From [Phialemoniopsis] sp. UDSM-2020 (taxonomy: Eukaryota; Ascomycota; Sordariomycetes; Thyridiales; Thyridiaceae), in NCBI GenBank assembly GCA_018873225.1, contig JAEILZ010000003.1, positions 1,240,001 to 1,304,000 on the forward strand: DNA of 64,000 nucleotides. Reading direction: 5' to 3'. The stretch's first letter is position 1, and each line of letters starts with the position of its first letter. A model generated the notes under the pieces. It had not been told where the DNA came from. It did not search any database and worked only from the letters and a program-made list of their open reading frames with translations. Shown here in pieces: positions 978 through 59,971 of the stretch. The position numbers and the translations under genes were made by a program.

Positions 978-1865
978 TTAAGCAGTGTCTAGGACGATGA
1001 CCTCTGCCTCGACAGACCCAATGCTTTCGACCAAGAGCTTGTCACCAGCATTTACAGAATCAACAAAGACGCCGTCTCCTTCATGCAGAACCGCATCGTC
1101 TCTGCCGTCCAGGCGAACGCTCGCCTTGCCACCTTTGGTCATGGGAAGGTGCACAAATACTTTTCTCTTGGTTGCCGCCGTGGCTTTCGCTCCAACCGTC
1201 CATTCAAAGGTGGTCTCGGGTGCAACGAGCCCGGCACCCATGGCAAAGTCTGCGTGGATGGGAATTGTATCGGGGATCACCGGTACAGCAGCTTTTTCAT
1301 CGGCCACCGTTGCATCGACGCCAGCCTTGAGAGGGCTCAAGATAGTGACGAAGGACTTCCGCTTCAGGTCCTCATCGAAGTGCTGCGTGTGATAGGTAGG
1401 CGGCAGTCCGCGCCGCCACGGGGTGACCCAGATTTGCAGAAAGTGCACTGTGTCTTTGGGGTGCTCGTTCATTTCGCTATGTGCAATACCTGTGCCTCCC
1501 GTGGTGAATTGCACGTCGCCGCGATGCATGCGGTAGAACTTGTCGCCCTGCCCAGTCTCATCGTCCTTGCGAACCATGGAGTCTCGGTGGGTCAGCTCGC
1601 CGGATAGGATGTAACTGAAGATCTCGTAGTCGCGGTGAGGGTGTGTGGGGAATCCCGACTGGGCCTTGACCCGGTCTTCGTTGAGCACACGAAGTGAACC
1701 AAACCCAGCGAAGTCTGGGTGATGCCAGCCCGCGAAGGGAAAAGAGTGATAGGTGTTGAGCCAGCCATGATCCGAGTGGCCCCGGGTTGACGACCGGTGG
1801 GGTGTGATTTTGGCGTGGTGGAGGAGTGTCTTGGACATGACGCTTCTGATGTTCGAACTGGCCAT
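978..1865 (-). CDS. pirin family protein
   Basis: This single-exon gene encodes 295 residues, the usual length for pirins. Pirins are bicupin proteins, usually binding Fe(II), with reported roles as nuclear cofactors or quercetin dioxygenase-like enzymes. The N-terminal cupin carries all four expected metal ligands: His75 and His77 in FPTHPHRDYE, and His129 and Glu131 in GIAHSEMNE. The second cupin is at about residues 175-290 and is less conserved, as is normal. The first ATG gives MASSNIRSVMSK; an internal start at Met10 is also possible because pirins often begin close to that point. No signal peptide or membrane segment is visible, so a cytosolic or nuclear location is inferred. The family call is firm; the substrate is not known. 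Confidence 0.93.
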   Translation of the reverse strand: MASSNIRSVMSKTLLHHAKITPHRSSTRGHSDHGWLNTYHSFPFAGWHHPDFAGFGSLRVLNEDRVKAQSGFPTHPHRDYEIFSYILSGELTHRDSMVRKDDETGQGDKFYRMHRGDVQFTTGGTGIAHSEMNEHPKDTVHFLQIWVTPWRRGLPPTYHTQHFDEDLKRKSFVTILSPLKAGVDATVADEKAAVPVIPDTIPIHADFAMGAGLVAPETTFEWTVGAKATAATKRKVFVHLPMTKGGKASVRLDGRDDAVLHEGDGVFVDSVNAGDKLLVESIGSVEAEVIVLDTA

Positions 1866-4800
1866 GTGCTTGTGTCTCCGGTTTTCGAGCTGAAGAAGGT
1901 TTGTGATGGAGATTATGGGGTGTGTTCTCGTTCACTTGTGTAAGTGCTGGTCTTGATGTGGATGTTGGATTTTGAGTGATCAATTAATTCTGGCCATGGC
2001 CTGAAGATGCAACTTTATACACATTGTTCGGTCTCCTCGATTACCGTTAAGAAGCTGCTACCTCCTTCGGCAATCTTTTCTTTCTCATTATTTTTCATGC
2101 TTGTATAAACATTGTATGAGCATGAACAAGATATATGGTAGTGTAAATGTCGTCAAGTGCTGACAAAGATGGTTGGTGTCAAGCAGTTCAATGACAGGCC
2201 GCTGACCAGAGCTTAGCTGATGCTGACAGCCCGGGTTGCTAACATCTGATAGGCCAATCTTGCCTGGCTTTAGTGGGTTGCAGGGTACGAAGGTACAAGA
2301 CGTGCGCTAGCTCATTCACTGAGCAGGCTTTCCAAAGATTTGCAGCTTTGTTTTATCAATTCCATTTCGAGCTCATAATATTATCTTCCACTACCAGTGC
2401 ATTATGAGAACTTGTCTTTTCAAGAATCTTCACCGGTTTGTATCAATCTGCCCAGACATTGTCTGGTTCGAGCGAGGTCCTCCTTCACTATGGTAAATGG
2501 TTGCTACCCGTCCAAGCTAGGGAAGATCGAGCAGGCTGTTCAGGCACAAGGGCTCAGATCGTTCTGCTTGACACGCCACTCTCCAGTCTCTTCTTCCACT
2601 TCTTGGAGGCGGAGACATCAGTCGGAGTAACTTTGTCAATCACTAAAGGCGAATTAACTTCTGCACCACAAGCTTACTCCATACGAAGAGCAAAGTACCT
2701 TGCACTCGTACCTAGCTAGCGGCGAACTCTGCACGAAGGTATCGACAATCTTGTCTCTGCCACGCTCGTCCTGGTCAGCCAATGGGAGCCGACCAGATGA
2801 GGAATGTATGGAGATAGTGCCGGCCGGCACCAGATGTGCGGCTGTTGACCGCACCTTTGGAATGGATGAGCATTCCAGCGCGAGGCTGGCCAGGGGCAAG
2901 TGGCGCTCCCTTTGCAACCCACGCATGGCAGAGGGGGATCCCCTCCTGGCTGCTCTCTGGGCCATCGAGCGCTCCCACGAATTATGGTTCCCATGGCTCT
3001 CTCCATCTCTCTCGAATTGACTGCTACTCCGTACAGATCTTCGGTCGGTCCACAAGATCGCACGAGTTTCTACATGTGGCTCCAAAGCGAGCAGGAGAAA
3101 AAACGGGGGAGAGATGCATGGCGAAACCTTATCCAACTTTCTCTTCCATCACTCACACCATATGGGCTCCGCCTGTCAAGATCTTAGGACGGACATCCAA
3201 CAAAGGAGCTTGCGGAGGCCGGCCACGATACCCGCTCCCCGTCGTCCTTGCACTCTTGGCGATCCAAGCTCCCCTTGTCTCTGTGCTAAGCAGCCGTCAC
3301 TCCAGCACCAAGCCGCGTCTGTGTGCTAACTGCTTCCACTCTGCCTATGTGTGTGTTGTGGAGAATAATAGACAGCACTTGCGCGATCGTGTCTCTGCTC
3401 GGCCAAAGCACCAAGTAGTTATTGTCTCACCCAGAACAGCCTCTCGAGAAATAGTTCTTCTTGAGGAAGCAAACGGTGCAAGTTTAGCCCACCGTTCAAT
3501 TTGGTGTGGCCCGGCACTCAGTGAAACCAACGCCCCGAACACCTCTAAGAACGCCTGACTCTGAACTGCCCCGAAGGGAATGTCTCGCAGCGCCAAAGGA
3601 GGAAATTGCATACACTGTAGGAATGGGACGGTGACCGTTGCCACAGTTGTCTCTGATCCAGTCTATTTTTGTTTGCTCTCCTCCCACCCTCCCCCCTTTG
3701 TTAGCCCGCCGCGCGCGGATAGAGGGCGTTACTTGTTCCTGAACAGTGAATGCTACGATCGGCTGGAGGTGCCTCGAGTCATGAAAGCTTTTTGAGCTCG
3801 AAACGGGGGATCTTTCTTGTCTCTCCTGTTCGGTCCTTATCTAGATATTGAGTTTTGTGTTTCTGAATATGGCCTATGGGCTTTAATGTCACAACGATGA
3901 GGGCTTGGATAGATCGGTAGCTGTTTCGCAGCGGATTGGTCGGGAGGGTGGCCCAGACGGACTTGATCCCGGTCTAACCGGAGCTCGACGCTCCTCATGA
4001 GCCGGAGTGCATGTATTGCCATTAATTGCGCACTGAAACTCGATACTATGAAAGCACTTTCGTGCATTCTGATCACCGTGCAGCGTTCTGATTCGCCGGT
4101 TCTTGTCTGTGCGTGTGTGAAGTGCATCATAAGTCACCGGCAATGGCCAGTGACCATTGGTGATATCTTCATCTTGGCGACAACACTTTAAAACCTCAGT
4201 GCATCTCTAATTATAAAGAGGATAATGAAATATAACTATGTATTTTTATGAAAATTACTCCGCGGTACCAATTACCGCGTCCCTTGATAAATATTGTCGA
4301 AAATGTGTCCTCCGTGATGCGGCTGCTCGTACGGGGCCACATCAGATATATCAAATAAAATGCTCTCTCGCAAGGCAAGCGCCTCAACTAAAGGAAATTA
4401 TGTGACTTTGTATGGTACTCGTTGCCGATTTATCGTGTACTTGGGTCATAGGCACTGTGCGAGTGCTGTTCTTTTGTTGTTTGTCATATTGCATTTCCGT
4501 TGTCAGGATTAATATCAAATTCATGTTTTCAAATAACGTGCACTCCGTAAAATAGCAAAAAATCCATAATCGCACCACCACGACTCCAAGACACTCAAAA
4601 GCCATATCAGAGGATATAAAAAAACCAGGAGATAAAGATGGTTTACTTTTTGGCTTGCCAAAACATAATGATGTAGCTCATAGATAGCGATATACGAAAG
4701 AGCCTACCCACAACCTCTGTGTTGCATGTGGGAATCTTCCGGCGTCGATATGGGGCCATGTTTCCCAGAGCTGGATGCACATTAGACTGCATCCGAAGCT

Positions 4801-7830: not shown

Positions 7831-8886
7831 ATGAGGTTATCAAACGCCCTCATTTTGGGCAGCGCTGCCTTGCCGGGGGCAGTGGCATGGGGAAGTATGT
7901 CACCAGTCTAAGGCCCCTCAAATCACACAATAGCTATGAGCGCAGGACATCGTGCTGAGACATCGCAATTAGGTCTGGGCCACATCACCGTCGCCTACAT
8001 AGCCAGCAGCTTCGTCGCGCCGCGGACCGAGACCTACCTGCAGGGCCTCCTCCGCAATGACACGGGCGACTACCTCGCCAACATCGCCACCTGGGCCGAC
8101 TCGGTGCGCTACACCAAATGGGGCCGCTTCAGCGGCATCTTCCACTTCATCGACGCCAAGGACGACCCGCCGGCGAGCTGCGGCGTCGACCTCGACCGCG
8201 ACTGCAAGGCCAACGGCTGCGTCGTGACCGCCATCCAGAACTACACGCGGCGCGCCATGGACACGGCCTCGCTGCCCGCCTGGGAGCGCGCCCAGGCCGC
8301 CAAGTTTGTCGTGCACTTTCTCGGCGACATCCACCAGCCGCTGCACACCGAGGACGTGGCGCGCGGCGGCAACGGCATCCACGTGCTCTTCGACGGCCGC
8401 GAGTGGAACCTGCACCACGTCTGGGACAGCAGCATCGCCGAGAAGATGGTCGGGTCGCGCCGCCGCCGGATCTACGAGGACGCCCTGCGCTGGTCGACCG
8501 AGCTGGCGGGCCAGATCCGGACGGGCAAGTATGCGGCCGAGAGCAAGGCGTGGCTCGACGGCATGGACTTTGAGGATCCGATTGCGAGCGCGCTGGTCTG
8601 GGCGAATGAGTGCAATGCCTATGTGTGCTCACACGGTAAGATGGAACCCCCGTGTCCTCTTTGTGAAATGTTTGGGAAGGTTCCTTGGACTAAGCTGACT
8701 TGTGTGTGATCAGTGTTCCCCGAGGGCCCGAAAGAGATCGCAGGCCAGGAGCTGGGAGGTGACTACTACGAGAAGGCGGCGCCGGTGATAGAGTTGCAAG
8801 TCGCTAGGGCTGGCTTCCGACTGGCGGCGTGGCTGGATCTAATGGTCGCAGGCATCGACGCCACCGAGACCATCGACGAGTTGTAA
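7831..8886 (+). CDS. secreted S1/P1-type nuclease
   Basis: Three exons (7831-7894, 7973-8635, 8714-8886) encode 299 residues, a normal length for the family. These are zinc-dependent extracellular enzymes that cut single-stranded DNA and RNA and remove 3' phosphates. The signal peptide (MRLSNALILGSAALPGAVA) is followed by W-G-S-L-G-H, created by the first splice. That supplies the Trp1 and His6 zinc ligands exactly where mature S1/P1 enzymes start. Other signatures follow in order: WADSVRY, FHFIDA, HFLGDIHQPLH, GGNGIHV and NLHHVWD. Four conserved cysteines are visible (SCGVDLDRDC and NECNAYVC). The chosen start is the only ATG that yields this signal peptide. The gene has very high GC at third positions compared with its flanks, which is typical of well-expressed fungal genes. 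Likely used for nutrient scavenging outside the cell. Confidence 0.95.
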
Positions 8887-26163: not shown

Positions 26164-28978
26164 CTTGAACTTCGCTGCTTACTAGCGACAGAGCAAGGAT
26201 GATTGGGGCGTTGCGACGGAGTGCTGCTTTCACAATGTCAAGCTGATGAGAGCTGTCCCCTATACTTTGGCTCTGCCCGCACAATGAAGTCAACTGCTAC
26301 CCCAGCCTTATTTTGCCTAGCTCAGGATTACCTAAGCTAAAGTAGATAGGTCTCCTCCTCTTCCCCCAACCCTCTCCCAAGAGCCTAGCCCATTGGTAGC
26401 CCGCCCACCAGACCAGCTGGAGGCTTGCTTGCGGGGGAAAGCGTCCAAAAGTCCCTGTGCAGATTCATCCAAGCCATTGGGACCAGACGGTCGATTTCAT
26501 TACGTTTGGTTTGCTGTGCACAGGCTCAAATCCCCTCAACTCGTCTTTTTTTGTCTCAGTCTTGAACTTTGAGAGTCGCTCCTCTGGCATGGTTGATCCA
26601 ACTCCCGTGTTTTCTTCACTCACACCCTCATCGTACAGAGACATGTCGGTAGTTCGTATCAATCTAAGTGATGCTCATCATGTGTGACCAGAATGACCTC
26701 GGAATATTTAATCTATCGCCTGTCACGGATAGGAGGCCGTGGTGGATACCACACGACGTGCACCGATGTTGGGGGAGCCACGCATCAAAGACCCTAGTTC
26801 GGCCCTGGAGTCGGTTGCCGTACATAGGTCGGGCGCGGAGGATCTCGCTCAAGCTTTCCAGTATCTCTTTCCGTTAATACTCTACCGTTGCATGCAAAGG
26901 TTGCGGGCCGAAGTACGATCTCGCTGTCAGGTATCGACCGTTGGGCGAAGGGTTATCCCACTTCCCAACCCATTACCGGTCAGTACTAGAGCATCACTAT
27001 CATAGTGAAGAGAAAATCTCTCGTGCGTCACATTTTTGGCTCCTTCAATAGTCACAGGGTAGTGAATATGGGTTGGTGCAAATGTCTCATCGCCACTCGA
27101 CACCACAGATGCTTTAGCACTGAATCGGCTATGTGCCCATTGGGCAGGCGGGGCGTGGCCGCGCATCCGAGATGGTTTCTGGCTGGCTGAGGGTTGGGAA
27201 CCAAGCCCCCAATACCCTCTGACCATCGTACATGCAGCTGGGCACTCCAAGCACACACCCGCAGACGATATCAGGCTATCTGACGCACTAGATCTCAAGA
27301 GAGAATGAATACCTGGTTCACGTTCCCCTTGTCATCCCTGACGTAAGATAGGAGGAGCATGAGATTGGGGAGTGGAAGAGAAGAACAGACGATGCTTTGT
27401 GCAAATTTGTCCTTTTTGTTCATTATCTGCATTATTTTCTTATTACTCCATACTTTAAGTGACTCCATACTCTGTTCGGCACGTTGGTTCCTACCGGATG
27501 GGGTATTGCGGGTTGTTCGGGGTTTCTAGGGCGAAGCGATAGGGAGTCGGCAAGTTTGAGTCAATGTGTAATCAAATATTGGCAGCACGCGGCGTCGGGT
27601 CCAGTATGGACCATCGTGGGTATTTCGTGGGTAGCCAAGGATGACTTGAGGACAAGCGTCTCTCTAGCGGGTGATTTGTCAGTGGCGCAATTCCCGGGGG
27701 CTCGGGGGAGATTTCGGGGAGTGGGTAGAGGCAAGAACGAAAAGGGGATATCGAGTCAAACTCCTATAGTACAATGCAGTGCATGACCAGGAGATGTATG
27801 GGTGTGTCTTATTCTCAGAGACACTTTGTTGCGTTGAGAAGCAGGCCGGAGGAACAACGGGAACTTGCCGTAGAGTGGCGCGCTGTGTCGAGTCCTTTCA
27901 GGTTTCTTCTTGTTCTGGCTGACAACGGGCCCTGTGCGAGATAGGTGATCCCGAGCGAAAAAAGAGACAAATCAGTAATGACAGGGGGCAGGGGTCTTCT
28001 ATCTTCGTCCGGTTGGCTGCGAGCTCCATCGTACCCGTGCCGTCCGGGCGACCCTGAGCCTGTATGTAGATCCCCAGTCGGTATCTCGAGTTGTACTTGC
28101 ATTACAGACAGGCGACGAGAGCACACTGGGCAGGGGAACTATGACGGCAGGTGGAAGCAAGTTATGAAGAGGAAAAGGGCCTTTTGGCGATTGCGCGCGG
28201 ACATACACACACACACTCTCTCTCTCTCTCTTTCTCTTGTCTCGAAATACCCGACGCCTGCCTGCCTCTTGTCTCGTTTCCCGCACCTAGTTACCGTGTG
28301 TGCCAGGGACTTTGTACTTTGTAGATTCCCGCCCACTTAACATCCATCGACTTCCCTAGTGCAGTAAGTAAAATCTACGGAGATCCCTGGTCGCACGCCA
28401 GGCGAGACCCGGCTCCCAGCAGCAGCGCACAGGTGCTAGGGCCACACACTAGTGCGGGTGCTACATGTACCGCCAAAAAAGCAAGTGCGCAATTCATTCG
28501 AGGTGCTCCAGTCTGCGTGAGTGAGCGCACACGGCGGCCACCGCATCCGCATCCGCCCTCTTTCTACACACCCACCTGGCCAAACGCCGCTTGGGGTCAG
28601 CCAACCACTGCCATCCTAATCTGGGACAGGACGACATTCAACTACACACCATCCCAGAACCCCATCCCATCTAGATCTCTCCCTCCCCCCGCCGTACTCC
28701 CTACAGCCTCGCTCTGTTTATCTTCATCTTTCATCTCGAAAGCTTCTTCTTTCTGCGACGCTTCGGATTCCGATCAATCACCCCCACACATTCGACCTTG
28801 GTACCGAGGGGCCCATATATTCTTACCGCCTCAGCCTCACCTAATCCGTCGAGTACCTCTCCCCGACCTCGACTGGTTCTCGGCAACCGTTGAGCCACAA
28901 CCTCAACCCCATCAACCACGTCTCCAGACTACCAAAATACCGGATCGCAGATATGCTGCTCACGCTTTGCCGCCAGCG
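26164..28978. other. 2.8-kb spacer and MED12 leader
   Basis: Divergent promoter region between the Asterix-like gene (-) and MED12 (+). From 28433 to 28978 the plus strand is open in frame with MED12 (182 codons, very Pro/Ser-rich). I treat this as 5' leader, because the ATG at 28979 gives the family-like start. A CA/CT microsatellite lies at about 28204-28236. Confidence 0.5.
28204..28236. repeat. (CA)n-(CT)n microsatellite
   Basis: A run of CA dinucleotides passes directly into a run of CT dinucleotides, about 33 bases in all, some 750 bases upstream of the MED12 start codon. It is probably length-variable between strains. Confidence 0.85.
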
Positions 28979-31900
28979 ATGACCTCGAGACCCTCTCTGG
29001 GCGTCCAGCAGCGACAGCCCCAGAGGTCGCTGAGCGGCTCTGGCATCCCCCAGAGGCCACCGCACCAGCGCACTCTTTCTCAACAATACCTACCGCCGTC
29101 GCCCATACGGAAAGAGGCCTTTTCTGACTTCAACACCCCAGATGCCGGCGATGTCGCGCAGGGTAGGATGGGCAGTCTCCGACGGGGAGGGTCCCGGCTC
29201 AAGCTGGAACTCTCCCACGAGACGTCGGACCAGACGCTCATCACCGAATCCCCCAGCGCTCTCGAATCGTCGCGAGCCTTCACACCATCGCGGATAATGC
29301 CCGCATCAGAACCGTCAGAGCTTGGAGACATGAGCCCCCAGGCGTCGACACAGGGCGACGCAGATTCCGGACGCTTACCCATGCCGAAGCGTCGCCCTCG
29401 ATTTGCGCAAGCCACCAACCGGCCCGCTGCTACAAAAGCGACACCGGCGCCACCTGCGAAAAAAGACGTGCGCCCCAAGATATGGACTGTAGAGGTTCCG
29501 GCGGATGCGCCACGTTTCTCAAAGCGCGGAAGGGTCGACCCGAGAACCAAGATCGCGGCCCCAGCCTCGGGCAGTGGTACCGATACCTCTCTGACCGGAA
29601 ATGCCGACTTCTTTCCATGGTCTGGCGGCCACGCCGAGGACCAGTGGTCAGAACAGATCATCCGATCGGGCTACTTCGACAAGCCTCCAGCTTCCGGGAC
29701 CACCGAGACATCGTCTGCCAAAGCCGCTCTGTTCCCCATGCTGAAGCACAAAACGGGATTGCACATGCTCTCTTCCATATTCACAGGCGTTCTAGGACAG
29801 AGGAGACACAGTGGTCAGATCAACCCGACCTCGACGTTCAAACCCCCTCCGCGAGTGACGGTCACAGATTCTAAGCGGGAAGGCTGGCTGAAGGACTTGG
29901 CAACGCCGACCATTCCGATCCGCCGCCTGAGTCGCACTATTCCACATGGCATCCGCGGCAAGGTCCTACTAGATCAATGCCTAAACAAAGAAATACCTAC
30001 AGATCGCGCAGTCTGGCTGGCAAAGAACGTGGGCGCGAACGAGCTGAGGGCCTTCAGACGCAAGGGCGTCAATGGCGCTTTCGTTATGGGTGGCGAGACC
30101 AAATGGCTCAAGGACTGGACTGGCAGTGTGGAGCAATTCCTCGAAACCAGGATATCCGCGTTTACCGACGACGACTGGAAGGCCAAGGTCAACTATGCGT
30201 AAGTGAAACGTCGGCGATCTTGCCTATTCAACACATCGACTAACACCATGACAGCATACGTCTTGCGACTAACTTATATGCCGAACACCTATTGGACCGA
30301 GATCACTATATGGACTGGCTAGTCTCCAGCCTAGAAAACAGCACGCAGGCAAAGCTTCCCATGTGGATATTGCTTGTTCAGATATACCTCAAAGACATCT
30401 TGTCACTTAGAAGGCATGGCCGCAGGCTGGTGACCGCACTCCTGAGCCACCATGCAGCAGTAAGTTGACGATCCCGATGCTGTCTTCAATGCTGTCAAGC
30501 TAACATGCACCAGATTCAGTCCAATCCCGATAAAGACATCCTTCAACCACTAACCTCAAACCTCTCGTCACTTGTCAACAAGATCCTGAAGAACAGCCCT
30601 CATAATTTCGTCTGTCCCTCCATGTGGCCGAAATACCGGGACAGCGTTGAGTCGTCACTCACCCCTGATGATGCTCGAATCCACTCTGCCTTCAAACACG
30701 TCAACAATAGGAACGAGCAGGTCGCTGTTGACAGTGTTCGAACAAACCCCGCGGCGAGAAACGTGTTGGTGAGGTTGCTGGACTCCACGCTGCAATCCCC
30801 TATCTCGAACGAGCTCGCGGCGCAGTGCTGGTCGGTCAGCAGAGACAAAAGTGCCTTGGTTAGGACTGTTTTGGATTGGTGCACATCCCTTTACAGATCC
30901 GGAATGGCCAAGGTGTATGTGGCTGCCCGTCTTCTGACGACATGGAACAACCACGGTGTCGATGTTACGACCGCCATTCTCGACTTTATGGGCTCGGAGA
31001 AGCCAGAGGAGCCTCAACGCAAGAAGATAGTATACCATCTTGTCTCTGAACTTATCCGATACGGCGACTTTTCGATTTCGCGCTATGTGGAATGGCTTAT
31101 TGCGCGTGGTGGCTTGCACAGCCCGGAGGACGTGGACCCGGAAGCCCCTGTCGACACGCGACTGCTGATCGAACTTCCGGTCCATTCCATGAGCGATTCG
31201 CTGAGGACATTACGAGCAAGCATGCTCCGCAGAGCCTCCTATGTGGTCGACGACGAGTCTCAAGACTTTGCTATGGCCATCGATGCCATCCAGACATGCA
31301 TCGGCTTTCCTCTCGGACACGACATACCTATGAACGGAAGAAAGCCGATGTCGGTCGGCAAACTGTCCAAGAGAATCGGTAAGAGCAGTCGCGCTCTCAA
31401 GACCGAGATTGCATCGTGGTTGAGAGATGCCTCTGTTCGCATGGATGCAGGGGCGAAAGGCGAAAAAGAAGGACTTGGTATCTCACTCTCTCTTTTCGCC
31501 GCTATGCGATCTATGCTTGAAGCTGCCGAAGACTACTCAATGTTGGCTCAGGTGCTGGAAGTTGCATCTGGGATGTCTGACGTTGAGCTCTTGGCTTCTT
31601 GTGCCGACACCATCAGCCTTCATCTGGAGGTATTCGCAGCCATCGGCAAAGCCCAGGAGCTGTTCGCATCTCTGCTAGCGAGATTAAAGGCCTTGGTAGA
31701 TGGTCAAGGCCTGGCAGCACGGCCTCTACTGGCTGCTTTGGCAAGCTTAGCACCGCGCTTGCCCGGTCACGAGGAGCTCGGGTCACAACTCAACAATGAC
31801 CTGGTCCGTAGCGATCGGAGCACAATGGTCGACGCTTGTTCGCCAGTCTCCGATAACATGGCTCTCAGGCTGCAAGATGCGGAGAGCGAGCTGCACGAAG

Positions 31901-33723
31901 AAATCGAGAAGCTCCTAATGAACGGCACGAGTATGGATCGGAATACGATGGAGAGGCTATTCGGTACAGTCATTGAGAGGCTTCAGGGTTGCTGGGCCAA
32001 GGTCGACGACGAGCGGCAGCGAGCATACGCGCTTCTTTTGACCCGTCTGCGGTTGTTCGATGTACACCATTTCGATAATCTCATGTCGAAATGGCTGTGC
32101 ATGGTGCGCACATCCGTCGAGCGACCCCCTCTCCAGCATATTTTCCCCCTCCTTGTCAGCACGGGCTGCTTGGGGCTGCCGTTAGTTCTCGCCAGTGCCT
32201 CTGACCGCATCCCCGCCAATAGTGCCTTGAACAGGGCTCCTCCCAGCTCAATTGTACAGAGTACCTGGAAGACGCGATATGTTCAAGGGGTTCTCCAGCT
32301 TCTGGGTCAGCCCCTTCCACATCACCCAATGCTCAGCGACGAGGAGTGCTACCGATATTCCGTTCTACAAAGCCAGACGGGCAAGACGCATCTAAAGGAG
32401 CTGCTCGTCCTTTTCCGAACTGCCTTGGCCGAGTATTCCCTTTGCAAGCAGCACGGCGGCACCGATCTCCCGCTCGACGAACCTCAGACTCTCAACCGTT
32501 TACTGGAGCATCTCAAGACCTTGGCTGTGATGGACTCTACCTCTGTTTCTCAAGCTCTGACGGCGAGGAGCGCGGACCCAGCGATTGCTGCGTACCTCGA
32601 GGAACTGACTACCAAGTTGCTCATCCCTAATTGCTCGGAAGGAGAGCACATTTCGTTCGAAAAGGTTCTCGAGCTTACCAACGAGTTCACCTTGCCGTTC
32701 TGTCAACTCAAACTCGTTGCGAGTCTGGGATCTGGTGATACCAAAACCGCAGACGCCGCTGATGGGGTCCAGTCCCACCTGGAGATGTTTGCGAAGGCGA
32801 TGGACAACGCTATCGAAGCCAGAAACATCACATGGACCGGAATGCTGTCGTGCCTGAGCCCGGAAATCACGCAGCACCTGAAGAACAGAGCCCAAGCTCG
32901 TTTTTTCGACGTCATCCCTTCTATGAAGAACCCCTCGCCACCAGAGAGGACGCTCGAGCAAAGTGTGCAAATGGCTGAAAACCTGCTTTCCGTCATTGAT
33001 GCCGTTGTCAGGGAGGGCACCATGGGCCGACCACCGCAGCTAATCGCGGCGATGGCTGACAAGCTGGCCGACATGTGGGAGATTCTTTCGACGGGCGACC
33101 TCGCCTCCAAGAAGGCTGTGGTTAAGCACTGGCTCCCACTGCTCCTGACCTTTACGACTCTCCACACCACGACCTTTGACACATCGAAGGCGAGCAACGA
33201 GATCCGCGGTAGGATTCTCCTCATCTTTTCTGGCATTCTCCAAGAGCTCGACGTACTGCCTCCGGATGCCGAGCTGGACCATCAGCTGAAGGAGCGTGTC
33301 TTTGATCTCGGGCTTGTGCTCGTGGACAATCTAGCCGACGATACCCGCCTGCAGTGCGTGCGTATCTTGCGCGATTCGACCAGCGACCAGAGAACCCAGT
33401 ACATATTCTCATTTGCGCCGCCGCCTTGGGATCATCTCATGCTCTCGCATCGAGACAGGCCAGGATCAGTGGCTTCAACAGCCGCGGCTGCTGCCGCCAA
33501 CAACAATAGCAACAGCAACAGCACTCAGGGACAGACTCCCGCACCTCCCACACCGGCACCACCGCGCTACATGGGCATGGGCGTCTGGAGCCAGCAGCAG
33601 CCCGAGAGGTTGTCCAAATTTGTGTATAGACAGTGGGACGTGATCAGCGATCCGAACCCGAATGTTGGAGAGAACGACTCGAGCCTGAACCTCAGCCTGT
33701 TTGAGGCCATCAAGCTTCAGTGA
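28979..33723 (+). CDS. SRB8: Mediator complex subunit 12 (SRB8)
   Basis: Three exons (28979-30198, 30255-30459, 30514-33723) encode 1544 residues, in the range for Sordariomycete MED12. MED12 is part of the CDK8 kinase module of Mediator, which activates the CDK8/cyclin C pair and represses or tunes RNA polymerase II transcription in the nucleus. The diagnostic Med12 domain lies at about residues 280-345 (FKPPPRV, REGWLKDLA and the following IPHGIRGKVLL, DRAVWLAKNVGANELRAFRRKG). The rest is a long alpha-helical region without catalytic motifs, as expected. The N-terminus is Pro/Ser/Arg-rich and disordered. Near the C-terminus there is a low-complexity Ala/Asn/Ser and Pro stretch (about residues 1465-1500). 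The ATG at 28979 was preferred over the upstream in-frame start because it gives the usual MTSRPS-like beginning. Confidence 0.94.
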
Positions 33724-40510: not shown

Positions 40511-42332
40511 ATGACTGCTGGTCCTGCGCCCGGCGACCGGGTCGCCATTGGTATTACCTTTGGTAACTCCAACAGCTCCATCGCCTACACCGTCGACGAC
40601 AAGGCTGAGGTTATTGCCAACGAGGATGGAGGTATGTAAATGGTCCAGTGCAATGGGACGAAAGTAATAGACTGATTCTTATTCCTTCTTCAGACCGTCA
40701 GATCCCCACCATTCTGTCATATGTCGGCGGCGACGAGTACTACGGCCAGCAGGCTAAGGCCTTCCTGGTCCGCAACCCCAAGAACACCGTCGCCTACTTC
40801 AAGGACTTCCTAGGGCAAGAGTAGGTTATATAATTTCGAGGGCCCCCCGGATCATTGCTGATTAGGTCTATAGGTTCAAGTCGATCGACCCTACCCACTG
40901 CCACGCCTCCGCCCACCCCCAAGAGAGCGACAACTCTGTCTCCTTCACCGTCCAGGACAAGGAGGGTGAGGACGCCGAGCCCTCCACCCTGCCCGTCTCC
41001 GAGGTCACTACCCGCTACCTGCGACGCCTCGTCGGCTCTGCCTCGGACTATCTGGGCAAGAAGGTCACCTCGGCCGTCATCTCCGTCCCCACCAACTTCT
41101 CCGAGAAGCAGCGCGCCGCCTTGATCGCTGCCGCCAACGCTGCCGGCCTCGAGGTCCTGCAGCTCGTCTCCGACCCCATCTCGTCCCTGCTGGCTTACGA
41201 TGCCCGCCCCGAGGCTGAGGTCAAGGACAAGATCGTCGTCGTCGCCGACCTGGGCGGCACCCGCTCCGACGTGGCCGTTGTTGCCTCAAGGAGTGGTATG
41301 TACACCGTCCTCGCCACGGCTCACGACTACGAGTTTGTCGGCGCTGCGCTCGACAAGGTCCTCATGGACCATTTCGCCAAGGAGTTCATCAAGAAGCACT
41401 CCGGTGTCGACCCTCGCGAGAACACGAGGGCTCTGGCCAAGCTCAAGCTCGAGGCCGAGGCCACCAAGAAGGCCCTGAGCCTGGGCAACAACGCCAGCTT
41501 CAGCGTCGAGTCGCTGGCCGAGGGTTTCGACTTTGCCAGCACCATCAACAGGTTACGGTACGAGACCATTGCCCGCAGCGTCTTCGAGGGCTTCAACCGC
41601 CTCGTCGAGTCCGTTATCAAGAAGGCTGGCCTGGACGTTCTCGACGTCGACGAGGTCATCATGGCCGGTGGCACTTCCCACACGCCGCGCATCGCCGCCA
41701 ACTTTGGCTACATCTTCCCCGAGTCCACCACCATCCTCGCCCCCAGCACCAGCCCCTCCGCCATCAACCCCTCCGAGCTGCAGGCTCGCGGCGCTGCGCT
41801 GCAAGCCTCGCTCGTCCAGGAGTACGAGGCCGACGACATCGAGCAGAGCACGCACCCGGCCGTCACGACCGTTAAGCACATCACCAACGCCATCGGCGTG
41901 ATCACCCTGTCCGAGGTCGGCGCCGAGGAGGGCTTCACCCCGATCATCGCCCCGGAGACCGCCGTCCCCGCCAGGCGCACCGTCCAGGTCGCCGCGCCCA
42001 AGGAGGGCGGCGACGTCCTGATCAAGGTCGTCGAGGGCGGCACCCACATCAAAGTCACCAAGCCCGAGCCCAAGGCCACCAACGGCGACAGCAAGCAGGC
42101 CAAGGTCGAGGACGATGACGAGGAGGACTCGGACTTTGACGACGAGTCGGACGAGGAGGAGGAGAAGCGCGAGAAGGTCTGGAAGGTCGGCGGCGCGCTG
42201 GCCGAGGCCGCCATCAAGGGCGTCAAGCCCAACGCCAAGGTCGAGGTCACGATAAACGTCACGGCCGACCTGGGCGTCACCATCACGGCGAGGGAAGTCG
42301 GCGCCAAGGGCGGCGTCCGGGGTACCTTGTAA
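40511..42332 (+). CDS. SSZ1: ribosome-associated Hsp70 SSZ1
   Basis: Three exons (40511-40631, 40694-40820, 40874-42332) encode 568 residues. Ssz1 is the atypical Hsp70 that forms the ribosome-associated complex with the J-protein zuotin and helps Ssb fold nascent chains. The nucleotide-binding domain begins with VAIGITFGNSNSSIAY (the first phosphate loop) and contains SVPTNFSEKQRAAL, VVADLGGTRSDVAVV and VIMAGGTSHTPRI. The usual Hsp70 adenosine and linker regions are degenerate, as in Ssz1. The substrate-binding part is reduced: it has an acidic linker (VEDDDEEDSDFDDESDEEEE) and a short beta domain ending in TITAREVGAKGG. The C-terminal EEVD of cytosolic Hsp70s is absent, as expected for this family. 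Confidence 0.95.
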
Positions 42333-54347: not shown

Positions 54348-55414
54348 TCATGGGTACTTATCCCTGTCCAACGGCGTAGCATGCATAACGTACCCAATCC
54401 GGTTGTCCAGAACTGTGTCTCGTCCGTCCGGCACCACGGCGCCGAACTTGGGGTGAATGAGCAGGCCCTCCTCGAAGGGGTCGACCTTGACCTTCTCCAT
54501 ACCCTCGAGAAGCAGCTTCCAGTTGACGCACTCGTGCGCAATCGTCCGGTTCCCACCGGGAAGGATGCTCTCATTGAACCAGAACATGGTCAGTGGTGTC
54601 TCATCCGCCTTGCACATGACGGCCTCGATGAGCATCTGGATGCAGTGCACTGGATGACAGTATCAGCACTGAGAATAGGGCTCATGGTCAGCTAGAAGAC
54701 TTACTACTGTGCTCCTTTTGCAAAGCCTGTTCTTCCTCCGTCATGTCAGGGAAATAATGGTCAGGGTAAAATGTGTGGTGAAGACGTTTCTGTGGTAAGT
54801 TGTGAGCATAAGACCCCGTTCTACTAGGAAATTTGTATCTTTTTTTCAACTTACCAAGCAGTGAAGTTGATGGATAAAGGCATAGTTGGCCAGGTAGTTG
54901 CCATTGGCCATCCGGATACCTTCCTTCTCTCTGCCGAGCTTCTTCATGTACTCCTTGGGCACCTCGGCATAGAAGTACTGCATGATGGCGTGCCAGTTGC
55001 GCTCGAGCTCAGGGCTCGGCTCACCCACGAGCATGGTGTCCTTGGCCATCTCTGTGTGCTTGAAGAATGTGGGCTCATACTTGATATAGTCCCTTATGGG
55101 TGCTGAAGCGGAGTGTTAGCCAGACATGAGGAGTTGCCAGATTGTGAGCCATTCAACCTACTGTCCACGACATTGGCGCCGTGCAGTCTCTCTTTCTTCC
55201 ACCACCAAGACGAGGCAGTAAGAAGAGCAGCAGAATAGGCCAACAGAACCACAAACCCAATGATCACCATCCAGCCGCGCCGCCGGCGGGTTGTCTTGAA
55301 CTGTGACCGATCTCCATCATAGATGAGATCGTCTGACTCTCTGGCAGAGTCTGAAGTCTGGTCGTCTGGGACAGGCGAGTAGGCCGGGTCGTTGTTTTTC
55401 TCTAGAATCCCCAT
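54348..55414 (-). CDS. UstYa / DUF3328 family oxidase
   Basis: Four exons (55414-55162, 55102-54855, 54789-54705, 54649-54348) encode 295 residues. UstYa-type proteins are single-pass membrane oxidases of fungal RiPP and other pathways, where they carry out oxidative cyclisation or chlorination of peptides. Residues 1-46 are cytosolic and end in RRRRG. One transmembrane helix covers about 48-70. Two copper-binding-type HXXHC motifs are present: HQLHC at 162-166, at the end of exon 2, and HSMHC at 194-198, where the last three residues depend on splicing exon 3 to exon 4. Between them are the usual Tyr/His-rich residues (HHTFYPDHYFPDMT), followed by CIQMLIEAVMCKAD and ECVNW. It stands divergent from the peptide precursor gene at 56158, with 743 bases between. 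That neighbour makes peptide modification the likely job; the chemistry is inferred. Confidence 0.93.
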
Positions 55415-56157
55415 ATTCGCGAATGTGTCAATGTGAAAGGAAGGGATTTGGAAGATGTGGGAAGGAGTGTCAAGTTGAAAGATGGAGTGAACATGAGCGA
55501 TCGGGTAATGTAGCAACGAAATAATACCCGGGTTGTCGGGTGAGAAAGCAAGAAGAGGAGTAGACGTCGGTTATCACGGGGAAGAGCCTCCTCGGATCAT
55601 CACTAAAGCTCGTAGCATGACAGCTCTACCTTCTCTAATTGGTGTAGATCGACTGGGCTTACATGCATTGTCTGGGCGGCCGCGAGGGGTGAGCCAGTGT
55701 TGCTCAACTACCTTCCTAATGGCTTCGTCGGGTGTAACGCAAGCGGTCATGATGATATAGCAGGAGCTGGCGGAGGATAAATGCCTTCCTAAAACACGAT
55801 GGCGTAGGGCTGCAGTGGTCAAGGACAAGACGCCGTGCCGTAGTCTTACAGAGAGGGGTTGATGTACGACTGGAGTCGTGTTTCGCGGCAACGGTATCAC
55901 AGATACATTCGCATTCGTCATTGGCCTACATATGTCGTCGAAAGAAGATCTTGAGCGTCTTAGGCAGGTGAAAAGCGATCCGAGGAGAAGGTCCCCAGAG
56001 ATCCGAGCATGCAGCCCAGTCCGGGCGACTCATAAAGGCGGTGCCGCTTGTACTTGAAGTCGTGTGAGGACCACTCCGCCAACTTGGACTTGCACTTGGC
56101 TTTACCAACATCGTTCTCACATTACATCTTTTCGACCCAGAACCTCAGACTATCAAG
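55415..56157. promoter_or_regulatory. divergent region between the UstYa gene and the precursor gene
   Basis: The 743 bases separate the two start codons of the putative RiPP locus. A TATA-like CATAAAGG lies at 56031-56038, 127 bases before the precursor ATG. A minus-strand frame (55574-55921) is open but has no domain. Shared regulation is inferred from the layout. Confidence 0.5.
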
Positions 56158-56585
56158 ATGCAGCTCAAGCAGCTTGCCTTCGTGGCTCCCTTCCTCCTCG
56201 CCCTCGTCAATGGCTCTCCCATCGCCGAGACCAGTAAGCTCCTCACCGCTCAGGTAAAGAGTACAACTGACTGACGTGAATATCAGAGAATGTAGCTCGT
56301 GAGGTGGCCGAGACCGACGCTGACAGTGTCTGGCTCTGGAAGAAGCATGTCGCTGCCGATGCAGGTCACATTTTCTGGGCAGGCAAGAAGCGCGGCGGAG
56401 CCGAGACTGACGCCGACAACATCTGGCTCTGGAAGACCAAGCGCGACGGTGCTGTGACCGACGCTGACAACGTCTGGCTGTGGAAGACGAAGCGGGACGG
56501 TGCCGAGACTGATGCCGACAACATTTGGCTGTGGAAGAAGAGCAAGCAGCTGCAGAAGGACTCTGATGATGTCTGGCTGTGGTAG
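56158..56585 (+). CDS. Kex2-type repeat precursor peptide with Trp-Leu-Trp cores (putative RiPP precursor)
   Basis: Two exons (56158-56233, 56287-56585) encode 124 residues. A signal peptide covers about residues 1-19 (MQLKQLAFVAPFLLALVNG). From residue 33 onward there are six repeating units, with core positions DSVWLW (38-43), GHIFWA (52-57), DNIWLW (69-74), DNVWLW (86-91), DNIWLW (103-108) and DDVWLW (119-124, ending at the stop). Units 2, 3 and 4 are followed by KKR or KTKR, standard Kex2 sites; units 1 and 5 are followed by KK or KKSK. Units 3 and 4 are exactly 17 residues apart. This is the layout of dikaritin precursors (ustiloxin, phomopsin, asperipin), and a UstYa-type oxidase stands next door. 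An alpha-pheromone precursor is the main alternative, but the cores lack the usual Cys and GQ elements. The final product, size and ring structure are not known. Confidence 0.86.
56310..56585 (+). repeat. six coding repeats of the precursor peptide
   Basis: Unit cores begin at nucleotides 56322, 56364, 56415, 56466, 56517 and 56565. The DNA of units 3, 4 and 5 differs mainly at third codon positions, while the encoded T-D-A-D-N-x-W-L-W-K block is kept. Confidence 0.9.
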
Positions 56586-57142
56586 ATATTTCGAGTTGGA
56601 ACAATTGTGAAGAGATTCTACCCTGGCTTGTGTCTTTTTCTGTCGTCTTCGTATTCTCAAGCCGTTTCCTGAAGCTCCCTGGTGTCAAGTCGATGCGCAC
56701 TGTCGGGCCTTACATTCATTTTGTCTAGCAGATAAGCTCTAAAGAATGTTGAATTTCCTGCGATTGTTTGGTGGGAGCCGTTTTCTTTGCATAGTTCTTC
56801 GATCCTGAAGTAGACTACTTAAAGCATAGTGCCCGGCACAATGTACGAGAAGAACATTGCCCCTGTACAGAGCGCTGGCCTAGAGTCTGCTCGACTCAAG
56901 CTTCTTTGTTGCCATGCAGAAACATGATGGATGGCTAAGCTTTCTTGGCATCTCGTAGGCACGGCAGGGTGCCCGAAAGTCTGGGGTGGAGACCAGATTG
57001 ACTGCATGTGTTATCACCGATAAGATAAGAAGCTCTTATCGACAACGTGTGGGCATTTTTCCTTCTTCAAAAGTCCAGGTGAGCCAAGGCTTAGACAGTG
57101 AGTCGGCAATATTCGCGTTAAACAACTCTCAAATGCTGTGAG
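56586..57142. other. intergenic, precursor 3' flank and POP1 promoter
   Basis: Nothing supported in these 557 bases. A further oxidase, protease or transporter gene was looked for here and not found. Confidence 0.6.
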
Positions 57143-59971
57143 ATGGGGCCCAAAGAACGTGCTGTCTCCGTCAAGGAGCAGCAGGCGTCTCAAAAACGAA
57201 AGGAGTCACCGCAGCCCGGCCGCGGGTCCAAGCAGCAAGGAAATGGCGACAGCCAGGGTGGACGCGCCGCAAAGCGTGTCAAGGTGTTCGATGCCAGGAG
57301 CATACGGAGTCAACCGTCCGCCGCGGCCAAGCACGATGGCGAGCTGGATTTGCAGGCCTTCTTGAGCTCCCGGCAGTTCGAGATTAAGGCTCTCGAAGAA
57401 AATATGCGCAAGTCCAAGGCTGTATCGGCCCGGCGAGCTTTTCAAGCGGTCCCCCGTGACATGAGGAGGCGGACTGCAAGTCACAATGCCAAGAGGCTCC
57501 CCAAAAGGCTTCGGCGGAGAGCGCGTTTTGAAATGCAAACGGACAACACGCCCACCGTGGACTCGCGGAGGAGAAAACCGCGAACGACCAAAGCCAGGAT
57601 TCGCGCCGAGACCGCGAAGAGGCTGGGCATCTTAGCCAAGAGGAAGAGAAATCGGCAACTTAAGGATGCAGCTGGTAAAGCTGCAGGAAGTGACGCAATG
57701 GTCGTCGACTCTTACATACAGTCGCGGCCGGCAAAGCCCAAGGTCAAGAAGAACAAACTTGTCGACCCGCCGAAGAAACGTTCCAAATTTGCCAAGCGTC
57801 AGCGGGAAAAGGTCTGGTTGCCCACACACATCTGGCATACCAAGAGAGCGCGGATGACGGAACCCACGAATCCACTGTGGAAGTTTGCCATACCACTCAC
57901 GCCAACAGAGAAGGTCTATCGGCCGACTCACCGTGCCTCCACCATGAAAGGAGCTATGTGTTGGGATACGAGCTACATCAGCACGATCCGGCTGAAAGGG
58001 AATCCCGATCATATCGATTTACTAACCTCTCTCCAATCAGCCTCGGGGGGCAAAGCAATGAGACAGAAGATCAGGGACGGTGCTCGAGGAATGACACAAT
58101 TATGGAGAATGACAGATGTGAGCGGTCGGATTGATCCAGACAAAAACATTATGGCCGGAATGGCGACAACAATATACAACCCGGAAGCCAGGTCTTCGGA
58201 TACCGAAGAAGTCGCGGATGAAGCTGCTAAACCTTCTAGGGAAGTATTCCTTAGGCTGCATCCAGCATCATTCCAGTACGTCTGGGACGAACTCCTCCAT
58301 ACCATCAAGTCTCGTGATCTTCGAGTTACTCTGCAAGATCTCCGCTGGGAAATTGGCAGCATCGAAATTACTGGTCCTGGCTGTACAGAAGCTCTCAAGG
58401 GAATTCTGCAACCGATTCGGGAGAAGGGAAAGTCAAAGCCAACAACAGAAGCCACCGAAGTCCACGCAAAGACGTTTGAGGAACTTCCTTGTGCTACAAA
58501 TCCAGCCTCGCTTCCCAAAGACGTCATTTTGTCTTTTATGGTAGAGGATCCCCGCCTTCACTACCCACCCAGGACATATCAGGGCCCAGCCCCTGAACCT
58601 GGAGACGTTGGATTGGACTACATCAACACCTTGAATGACTGGCCTGCTGATGCTGGCATCAAGCCTTCGTCACTGTTTGATGATGCGGCGCGGCTCCGCG
58701 CCTCAGAACTGCCCTCTCTGGGAGCACTGAATCGGCGCAAGTCTGCGAGACTGCCCGGGAAGAAACTTGAGCGCACCCCTGCCGATCCCCCTATCCCCGT
58801 CATCTTGATGGCGTCGCGCGGAGAAATGGGTTTAGCAACTCACGGCTCATGGACTCTGCTTGCACCCTGGAAATGCATTCTTCCTATATGGCACAGTCTG
58901 GTCCACTATCCGTTGTCTACAGGTGGCAACCCTCGCTTTGGAGGATTGAACGAGCTACGACAGGTTACTTACGAGCAGGGTCTCCCATGGTTTCCCGGCG
59001 ACTATCCAGGCACACATGCCGGTCTGCAGTGGGAGCTCAAAGAGCGCGAGAGGAGAGAGAAGGAGTGGAAGCGCCGCCCGAAGAGCAAGAGACCAGTGTG
59101 GGAATCACTCGATCTCGGCGCTGGAAGGAAGGGTGAGATTGGATCCGGATTTGCCTGTGACTGGGAGTTCCTCTTTGAGATGCCACCTCTCGAGCATGCC
59201 CAGGCGAACAAACCCGCGGAGGATGGCAAGTTGCCTACAGAGGGGCAGCTGCACACGAAAGACTCGGTACTGGCAAACCATCCTCTTAGGAAAGTCACGC
59301 ATCATTCGAAGAAATCCTTCGGCGAGTATCTGTCGCATCCTGAGAAGAGGACGACCAGTGTTGAGGGACTATCAACTGTCAAGATCACTATGCTGGGACG
59401 TGGAGTGCCAGCTCCCTGCGCGAGGATTTACCGCCTTCCCCCGCGACCCAAACCCGCCGAGCAGGGTACCCAGACTGAAGTGCCTGCAACAATCCCTCCG
59501 TCAAAACCCGGCGCGCTTCCCTTTGATCTGCGAGAGCAGTGGCTCAATCTCGTCCCTCAGAGCTCTCAACGGAACGGTACCGTGGGGCATAAGAACAGCT
59601 CAACGAAACGACCGCCACAGCCCAAAGCTATGCCCAAGGACGCGGATCCGCAGACCCGCAAGCGGCTGCTGGCCCAGTCGCTCCTTACGACTGAGCTGCC
59701 CTACCCGCGACCGAAGGGCAATGAGACAGACATGGGTGGGTACCCACTAGTTCCAGGCCAGGAGGACCTCATGGGCTTTGTCACGACGGGCGAGGTAAAC
59801 TTGAGCCTCGGAAGGGGCTTCGGCATCGGGCATTTGGCGACGAAGAAGGCACTCGAGGCGGCGGACCCGACGAACTTGACCCGGCCCAAGTCGACCGTCG
59901 AGGCGAGGCTGTGTATTGTACGAAATGTTGGGGAGAGCGTGGGCTGGCTTGCGCAGTGGGAGCTACTGTAA
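57143..59971 (+). CDS. POP1: RNase P/MRP protein subunit POP1
   Basis: This single-exon gene encodes 942 residues. POP1 is the largest protein of RNase P (tRNA 5' processing) and RNase MRP (rRNA processing) and acts in the nucleolus and nucleus. The N-terminal POP1 domain includes FQAVPRDMRRRTASHNAKR and RLRRRARFEM at about residues 99-135, with very basic neighbours. The WLPTHIWHTKRARM segment and the RLKGNPDHIDLLTSLQSAS stretch are also typical. The POPLD domain near 560-650 carries CILPIWHSLVHYPLSTGG and LRQVTYEQGLPWFPGDYPGT. The C-terminus, VRNVGESVGWLAQWELL, is the family's end. Length and motifs fit filamentous fungi. It closes the accessory island on the right. Confidence 0.95.
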   Translation: MGPKERAVSVKEQQASQKRKESPQPGRGSKQQGNGDSQGGRAAKRVKVFDARSIRSQPSAAAKHDGELDLQAFLSSRQFEIKALEENMRKSKAVSARRAFQAVPRDMRRRTASHNAKRLPKRLRRRARFEMQTDNTPTVDSRRRKPRTTKARIRAETAKRLGILAKRKRNRQLKDAAGKAAGSDAMVVDSYIQSRPAKPKVKKNKLVDPPKKRSKFAKRQREKVWLPTHIWHTKRARMTEPTNPLWKFAIPLTPTEKVYRPTHRASTMKGAMCWDTSYISTIRLKGNPDHIDLLTSLQSASGGKAMRQKIRDGARGMTQLWRMTDVSGRIDPDKNIMAGMATTIYNPEARSSDTEEVADEAAKPSREVFLRLHPASFQYVWDELLHTIKSRDLRVTLQDLRWEIGSIEITGPGCTEALKGILQPIREKGKSKPTTEATEVHAKTFEELPCATNPASLPKDVILSFMVEDPRLHYPPRTYQGPAPEPGDVGLDYINTLNDWPADAGIKPSSLFDDAARLRASELPSLGALNRRKSARLPGKKLERTPADPPIPVILMASRGEMGLATHGSWTLLAPWKCILPIWHSLVHYPLSTGGNPRFGGLNELRQVTYEQGLPWFPGDYPGTHAGLQWELKERERREKEWKRRPKSKRPVWESLDLGAGRKGEIGSGFACDWEFLFEMPPLEHAQANKPAEDGKLPTEGQLHTKDSVLANHPLRKVTHHSKKSFGEYLSHPEKRTTSVEGLSTVKITMLGRGVPAPCARIYRLPPRPKPAEQGTQTEVPATIPPSKPGALPFDLREQWLNLVPQSSQRNGTVGHKNSSTKRPPQPKAMPKDADPQTRKRLLAQSLLTTELPYPRPKGNETDMGGYPLVPGQEDLMGFVTTGEVNLSLGRGFGIGHLATKKALEAADPTNLTRPKSTVEARLCIVRNVGESVGWLAQWELL

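Follow-up and report, generated by a model that had tools for sequence, protein, structure and literature searches.

The window analysed here is a stretch of 64,000 nucleotides from [Phialemoniopsis] sp. UDSM-2020, corresponding to positions 1240001-1304000 of contig C5 in a 44.2-Mb genome of 11 contigs. It carries a gene for a small repeat precursor (56158-56585, plus strand) and a UstYa/DUF3328 gene, the start codons of which point apart across 743 bases (Table 1). Spliced at a single 53-base intron, the precursor gene is translated into exactly 124 residues, the length given in the earlier note. The intron at 56234-56286 is supported by comparison of the spliced product with the homologue P0001, to which it is 85% identical across 100% of its length. 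The N-terminus of the precursor is hydrophobic and alike across the aligned homologues when read by eye. The Pfam scan matched no family to it.

Table 1. Features of the precursor/UstYa locus and other Pfam-matched frames of the window (positions are those of the window)
Feature	Position	Strand	Remarks
UstYa/DUF3328 gene, 295 aa, three introns	54348..55414	-	exons 55414-55162, 55102-54855, 54789-54705, 54649-54348
Second HxxHC motif, HSMHC, residues 194-198	54642..54711	-	split by intron 3 (54704-54650)
First HxxHC motif, HQLHC, residues 162-166	54858..54872	-	translation
Likely single membrane helix of UstYa, ~residues 48-69	55208..55273	-	by eye
Divergent intergenic region, possible shared promoter	55415..56157	.	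743 bases
Precursor exon 1	56158..56233	+	codons 1-25 plus the first base of codon 26; spliced translation
Signal-like N-terminus, ~residues 1-20	56158-56217	+	hydrophobic, by eye
Precursor intron, GTAAGC...ATCAG	56234..56286	+	GT..AG, 53 bases
Precursor exon 2, all repeat units and TAG stop	56287..56585	+	protein ends WLW; spliced translation
Unit 1, TDADSVWLW, then KK	56313..56339	+	spliced translation
Unit 2, divergent type, DAGHIFWAG, then KKR	56358..56384	+	spliced translation
Unit 3, TDADNIWLW, then KTKR	56406..56432	+	spliced translation
Unit 4, TDADNVWLW, then KTKR	56457..56483	+	spliced translation
Unit 5, TDADNIWLW, then KK	56508..56534	+	spliced translation
Unit 6, KDSDDVWLW, C-terminus of protein	56556..56582	+	spliced translation
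POP1, adjoins precursor	57122-59968	+	Pfam
NT-C2	43884-44570	-	Pfam
Hsp70	40866-42329	+	Pfam
Med12 and SRB8, two frames	28325-33720	+	Pfam
S1/P1 nuclease	7912-8706	+	Pfam
PQ-loop	5676-6323	-	Pfam
Pirin	981-1931	-	Pfam

We observed that the precursor has the Kex2-type repeat architecture of near-identical units parted by dibasic sites, with such a site after each of the five internal units. The six Trp-rich units described in the earlier note are present, but five are of the [IV]WLW type and one is of an IFW type, and only three read D-N-I/V (in order: DSVWLW, (GH)IFW(AG), DNIWLW, DNVWLW, DNIWLW and DDVWLW). At the DNA level, three copies of the repeat match a 50-nt reference copy at 72-88% identity, which is more than expected by chance. 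Among the five WLW units, synonymous sites differ while D, D and L are fixed. The divergent second unit is the counterpart of NTMFWAG in P0001 and perhaps also of PSVIWPA in P0046, and a second unit type is likewise interleaved with the WLW type in other precursors. In P0046 (Xylariomycetidae sp. FL0641), the unit GDEWKDEGGPSVIWPA-KR alternates with WLW units; it is perhaps the counterpart of the window's IFWAG, and this precursor may perhaps give two products.

Homologues of the precursor were searched for with the single sequence, which gave four matches at E <= 0.1, and with a five-sequence profile, which gave 14 matches at E <= 10. We kept 12 homologues, all with E <= 3.9e-14 in the profile search (one of them reached 2.6e-64 in the single-sequence search), and left P0049 (E 2.5) and P0050 (E 8.5) out of the counts as weak fragments, though both hold WLW. 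The closest relative found was that of Thyridium curvatum (Sordariomycetes, Thyridiales), with 85% identity. The proteins, including that of the window, are small (76-179 aa), and none of the nine out of 13 that were scanned with Pfam had a family over the cut-off.

These 13 precursors contain 50 WLW units, counted with WLW as the search key, so that WLW itself is found in 50/50 by construction and other types (IFW in the window, MFW in P0001, VIWPA in P0046) are omitted. The residue preceding WLW is Ile in 31 units and Val in 19, with no other residue in any of the 50, and Asp occupies positions -5 and -3 in 49/50 units each. The D-N-I/V-W-L-W core proposed in the earlier note is therefore too narrow; over the 50 units, the family motif is D-x-D-x-[IV]-W-L-W. 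The spacers between units are variable across precursors, the protein stops directly after WLW in all 13, and the core is retained in at least two fungal orders. Tyr is absent from every one of the 50 units and from 12 of the 13 precursors, the sole Tyr belonging to an N-terminal extension that P0041 carries. When P0047 is set aside, each of the 35 internal WLW units in the remaining 12 precursors has a dibasic pair at most four residues away. P0047 (Naviculisporaceae sp. PSN 640) has such a pair at neither of its two internal units, and it retains WLW, which points to selection on the unit as such. The P0047 units lacking a nearby dibasic pair also suggest another processing route in this protein.

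The divergent gene scored 143.8 bits with PF11807 over residues 41-243 (cut-off 25; E = 9.2e-42), and it holds both HxxHC motifs, HQLHC and HSMHC, in agreement with the earlier note. In 24/24 aligned sequences (the window's protein and 23 of its 36 homologue matches), the motif pair keeps its four His and both Cys. The window's UstYa shares 47-75% identity with these 36 homologues over the part compared, and 22-40% over fragments with other UstYa genes of the same genome; this UstYa and its homologues probably constitute a separate orthologous group. No chain in the PDB matched the protein in a single-sequence search at E <= 0.001. For the family member CctR, excerpts of PMC12435403 report that mutants of HxxHC residues lose activity, and that two copper ions are bound per monomer; they propose that the domain lies on the lumenal side of the organelle.

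The UstYa proteins of Kalmusia and Karstenula (P0005 and P0027; Dothideomycetes) are 72 and 75% identical to that of the window, and in a midpoint-rooted tree of 24 rows they were placed among Sordariomycetes with 94/94 support. After removal of Cucurbitaria, a long branch, the transfer test gave a p-AU of 0.047 for a group that was named after the tree had been seen. The case for a transfer of this UstYa between classes into Didymosphaeriaceae is borderline.

The precursor and UstYa genes recur together in other fungi. A precursor was tied to a UstYa when the contigs of the two were equal in size, which was read as the same contig. By this measure, the searches with both proteins tied 6 of the 12 precursor homologues to a close UstYa relative, and four of these six pairs lie at locus tags one or two apart: Xylaria scruposa (precursor/UstYa P0004/P0012, locus tags 445704/445705), Xylaria sp. 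CBS 124048 (P0048/P0018, 690495/690496), Xylariaceae sp. FL1272 (P0041/P0016, 474023/474021) and Biscogniauxia mediterranea (P0043/P0022, 645333/645331). Equally sized contigs alone tie the pairs in Xylariaceae sp. FL0255 (P0044/P0015) and Xylariomycetidae sp. FL0641 (P0046/P0007). The other six precursors (P0001, P0002, P0003, P0042, P0045 and P0047, the closest one from Thyridium curvatum included) and 30 of the 36 UstYa homologues had no tie; as the lists hold one representative per 90% cluster, these cases neither support nor refute the pairing. The earlier note had proposed a search for the same gene pair in other fungi, and had named precursor homologues that never occur near DUF3328 genes as the refuting outcome; the six ties go against that outcome. 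Chance pairing of the two genes is unlikely in view of this recurrence.

We also looked at the surroundings of the pair. A Pfam scan of 30 of the 209 open frames of at least 100 aa in the window matched eight, none of which is a typical RiPP partner. Among the same 30 of 209 frames there was no peptidase gene typical of dikaritin clusters, and no transporter or methyltransferase beside the pair (a search for MFS proteins scored 9 of 1269 candidates). Tyrosinase had 21 matches genome-wide and none on contig C5. The window holds one UstYa gene, the next one listed on C5 starting at 1882284, about 0.6 Mb off. As to promoter motifs shared by the two genes, the only one found in the intergenic region was a weak 26-nt inverted pair (55573-55598 and 55977-56002, 73% complementary), which may be a regulatory site or due to chance.

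Genome-wide, 34 UstYa exon matches were grouped by hand into 18 loci. The 17 loci other than that of the window were examined in 18 stretches, each of 10 kb (so that the C8 group was covered by 20 kb), with a home-made detector of repeated units preceding dibasic sites, which works without splicing and can miss intron-bearing genes. Besides the window locus, candidate repeat precursors were found near 7 of the 17 (six clear, and a weak one at L024). The detector had been loosened after a stricter version (0/5 control tiles) missed the window precursor, so the counts are descriptive; the loosened one gave one spurious-looking match, just over threshold, in five window control tiles. The cores at these loci were PYKITTF, KEDDF, YNNAAGW, YVWASPG, YPIPPSV/YPIPASD, LRNGAWG and the weak HHQGKG. 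Three of them contain Trp, and Trp cores beside UstYa are thus not unique even in this genome, in agreement with excerpts of PMC7329392, in which Trp-bearing precursors next to DUF3328 are no rarity.

Among these candidates, L015:6833-7285 (plus strand; C1, ~514.3 kb) has five repeats of SEAQSPDILYNNAAGWGR-KR with both Trp and Tyr in the core, and lies amid four UstYa exon matches that make up about three genes. L017:2140-2748 (plus; C8, ~1888.1 kb) has nine repeats of DVEPAYVWASPG-KR beside four grouped UstYa matches. At L029:2845-3306 (minus; C5, ~1880.4 kb), ten repeats of EDAALRNGAWG with GRE and KR joints lie beside a UstYa; this precursor, like that of the window, contains Trp and is free of Tyr. 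Near other UstYa genes we found AADYIYPIPPSVSPE and AADYIYPIPASDAPE (eight units; L019:2118-2603, minus), EERQILPYKITTF (six units; L012:3184-3603, minus) and LPQVYGAHQLKTKEDDF (four units; L013:3258-3569, minus). The weak candidate at L024:1353-1757 (minus), EKREPHHQGKGKKGKK, also near a UstYa, has His-His motifs and may be of low complexity only.

The general kind to which the window locus belongs is that of Kex2 repeat proteins with DUF3328 neighbours, which, according to excerpts of PMC7329392, are common (1758 of 7878 such proteins, the other 6120 having no such neighbour). In this respect the locus is a conserved variant of known dikaritin-type logic. The dikaritin-type pairing claimed by the earlier note stands in the wide sense, a DUF3328/UstYa gene beside a precursor. 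It does not stand in the narrow sense of five gene types (excerpts of PMC12048977), with no tyrosinase on C5 and one DUF3328 gene in the window instead of several, nor under the rule drawn from known dikaritin products that Tyr is the cyclised core residue: ustiloxins, phomopsins and asperipin-2a are all described in PMC7329392 as bonded through Tyr. Most Kex2 repeat precursor types are, in the same excerpts, confined to one genus; the window precursor differs from most DUF3328-adjacent ones in having no Tyr and one core across at least two orders.

The nearest known system appears to be the asperipin-2a locus of Aspergillus flavus (aprA/aprY/aprT/aprR), where a repeat precursor is likewise accompanied by a single UstYa homologue and no tyrosinase (excerpts of PMC6514808), and where one precursor holds more than one repeat type (PMC7329392, in part). 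Its core, however, is FYYTGY with Tyr ethers, in contrast to the Tyr-free [IV]WLW, and no transporter or reductase was identified here among the 30 of 209 frames scanned. Ustiloxin B and phomopsin share with the window repeated cores, Kex2 sites and DUF3328 genes, their signal peptide having a possible counterpart in the signal-like N-terminus read by eye, and the phomopsin ring joins Tyr to Ile, so that Ile takes part (same excerpts of PMC6514808). Their clusters differ in having a tyrosinase, two or five DUF3328 genes and a cyclised Tyr (PMC7329392, in part), whereas the window has one UstYa and no Tyr, on a contig with no tyrosinase. CctR, the cyclochlorotine hydroxylase, is a HxxHC(x)nHxxHC dicopper enzyme of the same DUF3328 family, but its substrate, which it hydroxylates, is a non-ribosomal cyclic peptide (PMC12435403, in part). 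From gene content and motifs, we read these two genes as a dikaritin-type locus, ustiloxin/asperipin-like, with Trp-only units.

Plant BURP-domain cyclases and the bacterial Trp-crosslinked RiPPs cihunamide and darobactin offer a working resemblance only, that of oxidative side-chain crosslinks in short ribosomal peptides; BURP copper cyclases and the radical SAM enzyme of darobactin belong to families other than UstYa. Cihunamide is a bacterial product crosslinked by a P450. Cihunamide B carries a Trp-Trp bond, and such bonds therefore do occur in short peptides (excerpts of PMC13383641).

In the mechanism that we favour, the precursor would enter the ER via its signal peptide, and UstYa, anchored in the membrane, would oxidise the [IV]-W-L-W units at a dicopper centre that its two HxxHC motifs form on the lumenal side. 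Kex2 would cleave after KK or KR, and a carboxypeptidase would remove the basic residues, leaving each unit with a free ...WLW end like that of the natural last unit; N-terminal trimming may come next. A point against this course is that Kex2 cuts less well at KK than at KR. Oxidation would most likely fall on the two invariant Trp, on the beta-branched Ile/Val that invariably precedes them, or on both. That UstYa oxidises the WLW units at all is, judging from the paired genes and motifs, probable. Because the beta-branched residue is invariant and the Trp is paired, a Trp-Trp or Trp-Ile/Val crosslink would be the single most likely product, at a little under even chances.

The Trp-crosslinked cyclic peptide put forward in the earlier note is thus overstated; it is one of several outcomes, the chemistry of DUF3328 enzymes being diverse, with halogenation, hydroxylation (as by CctR), macrocyclization and isomerization reported in excerpts of PMC12435403. 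As a sub-case of oxidation by UstYa, the units may be modified with no ring formed, by hydroxylation of Ile, Leu or Trp or by formation of dehydro-Ile, -Val or -Asp, to give a linear modified peptide. We consider this outcome quite possible, if clearly short of an even chance. It is consistent with a single UstYa in the window, with the lack of tyrosinase on the contig and with the absence from the units of Tyr, the cyclised residue of known products, and a title cited in PMC12186524 ascribes the dehydroamino acids of phomopsins to UstYa proteins. Trp itself is not enriched beside DUF3328 genes (20.5% of the 1758 precursors with such a neighbour and 24.5% of the 6120 without) and Tyr is (65.6 and 38.2%; excerpts of PMC7329392), which counts against Trp as the usual target, lowers somewhat the odds of a crosslink and of the favoured mechanism, and slightly raises those of a linear peptide. 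Against the ring-free outcome, asperipin-2a is macrocyclised in a four-gene cluster that has a single UstYa and no tyrosinase (PMC6514808, in part), and the two invariant Trp, two residues apart, resemble crosslinked aromatic pairs such as the YLY joined by the P450 ApyO (excerpts of PMC13192836).

Two further readings were weighed. If the peptide were secreted linear and unmodified, resembling a hormone or pheromone, the neighbouring UstYa would act elsewhere; the unusually conserved WLW core, the six precursor homologues with no tie, and the 6120 Kex2 repeat proteins with no DUF3328 nearby, where Trp is slightly commoner (PMC7329392, in part), would fit this reading. The six ties, four of them at nearly adjacent locus tags, argue against it, and we hold it to be improbable. 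We take the WLW units to be unlike alpha-factor-type pheromones. The pheromone reading was set aside because mating-factor precursors, with three exceptions, have no DUF3328 neighbours in the excerpts of PMC7329392, which also weighs against an unmodified peptide. The other reading is that the repeat protein stays uncut and functions as such, for instance in the wall or at the surface, its dibasic residues being incidental; the internal units of P0047, with no dibasic pair nearby, speak for it. It is very improbable given the dibasic pairs at all 35 internal units of the other precursors, the small size of the proteins and the Pfam scans, in which none of the nine proteins covered had a family over the cut-off.

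Oxidation of the WLW units by UstYa is the reading that we retain. In its most specific form, that of a Tyr-free RiPP family in which one dicopper UstYa would join two Trp, or a Trp and the C-beta of Ile/Val, by a crosslink within [IV]-W-L-W, it is a tentative and rather unlikely proposal. Among the titles, abstract openings and passages of openly licensed PMC papers that came up, we found no Trp-cored dikaritin and no product with this [IV]WLW core. Some of these precursors may be listed in supplementary tables of PMC7329392. In openly licensed full text, the strings DDIWLW, DAIWLW, DDVWLW, DAVWLW, DNIWLW and IWLWKK matched solely in two papers, both on long non-coding RNA.

With a Trp-only substrate, a single UstYa and a contig lacking tyrosinase, the locus is a compact system in which to probe the chemistry of DUF3328 enzymes on Trp, and the 13 precursors with their 50 units form a natural alignment showing which residues matter. 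The conservation of WLW raises the question of a common biological role. The unit stays the same across orders, and the two genes lie beside a housekeeping gene with no cluster evident; the product may therefore be a signalling peptide that fungi conserve rather than a fast-evolving toxin.
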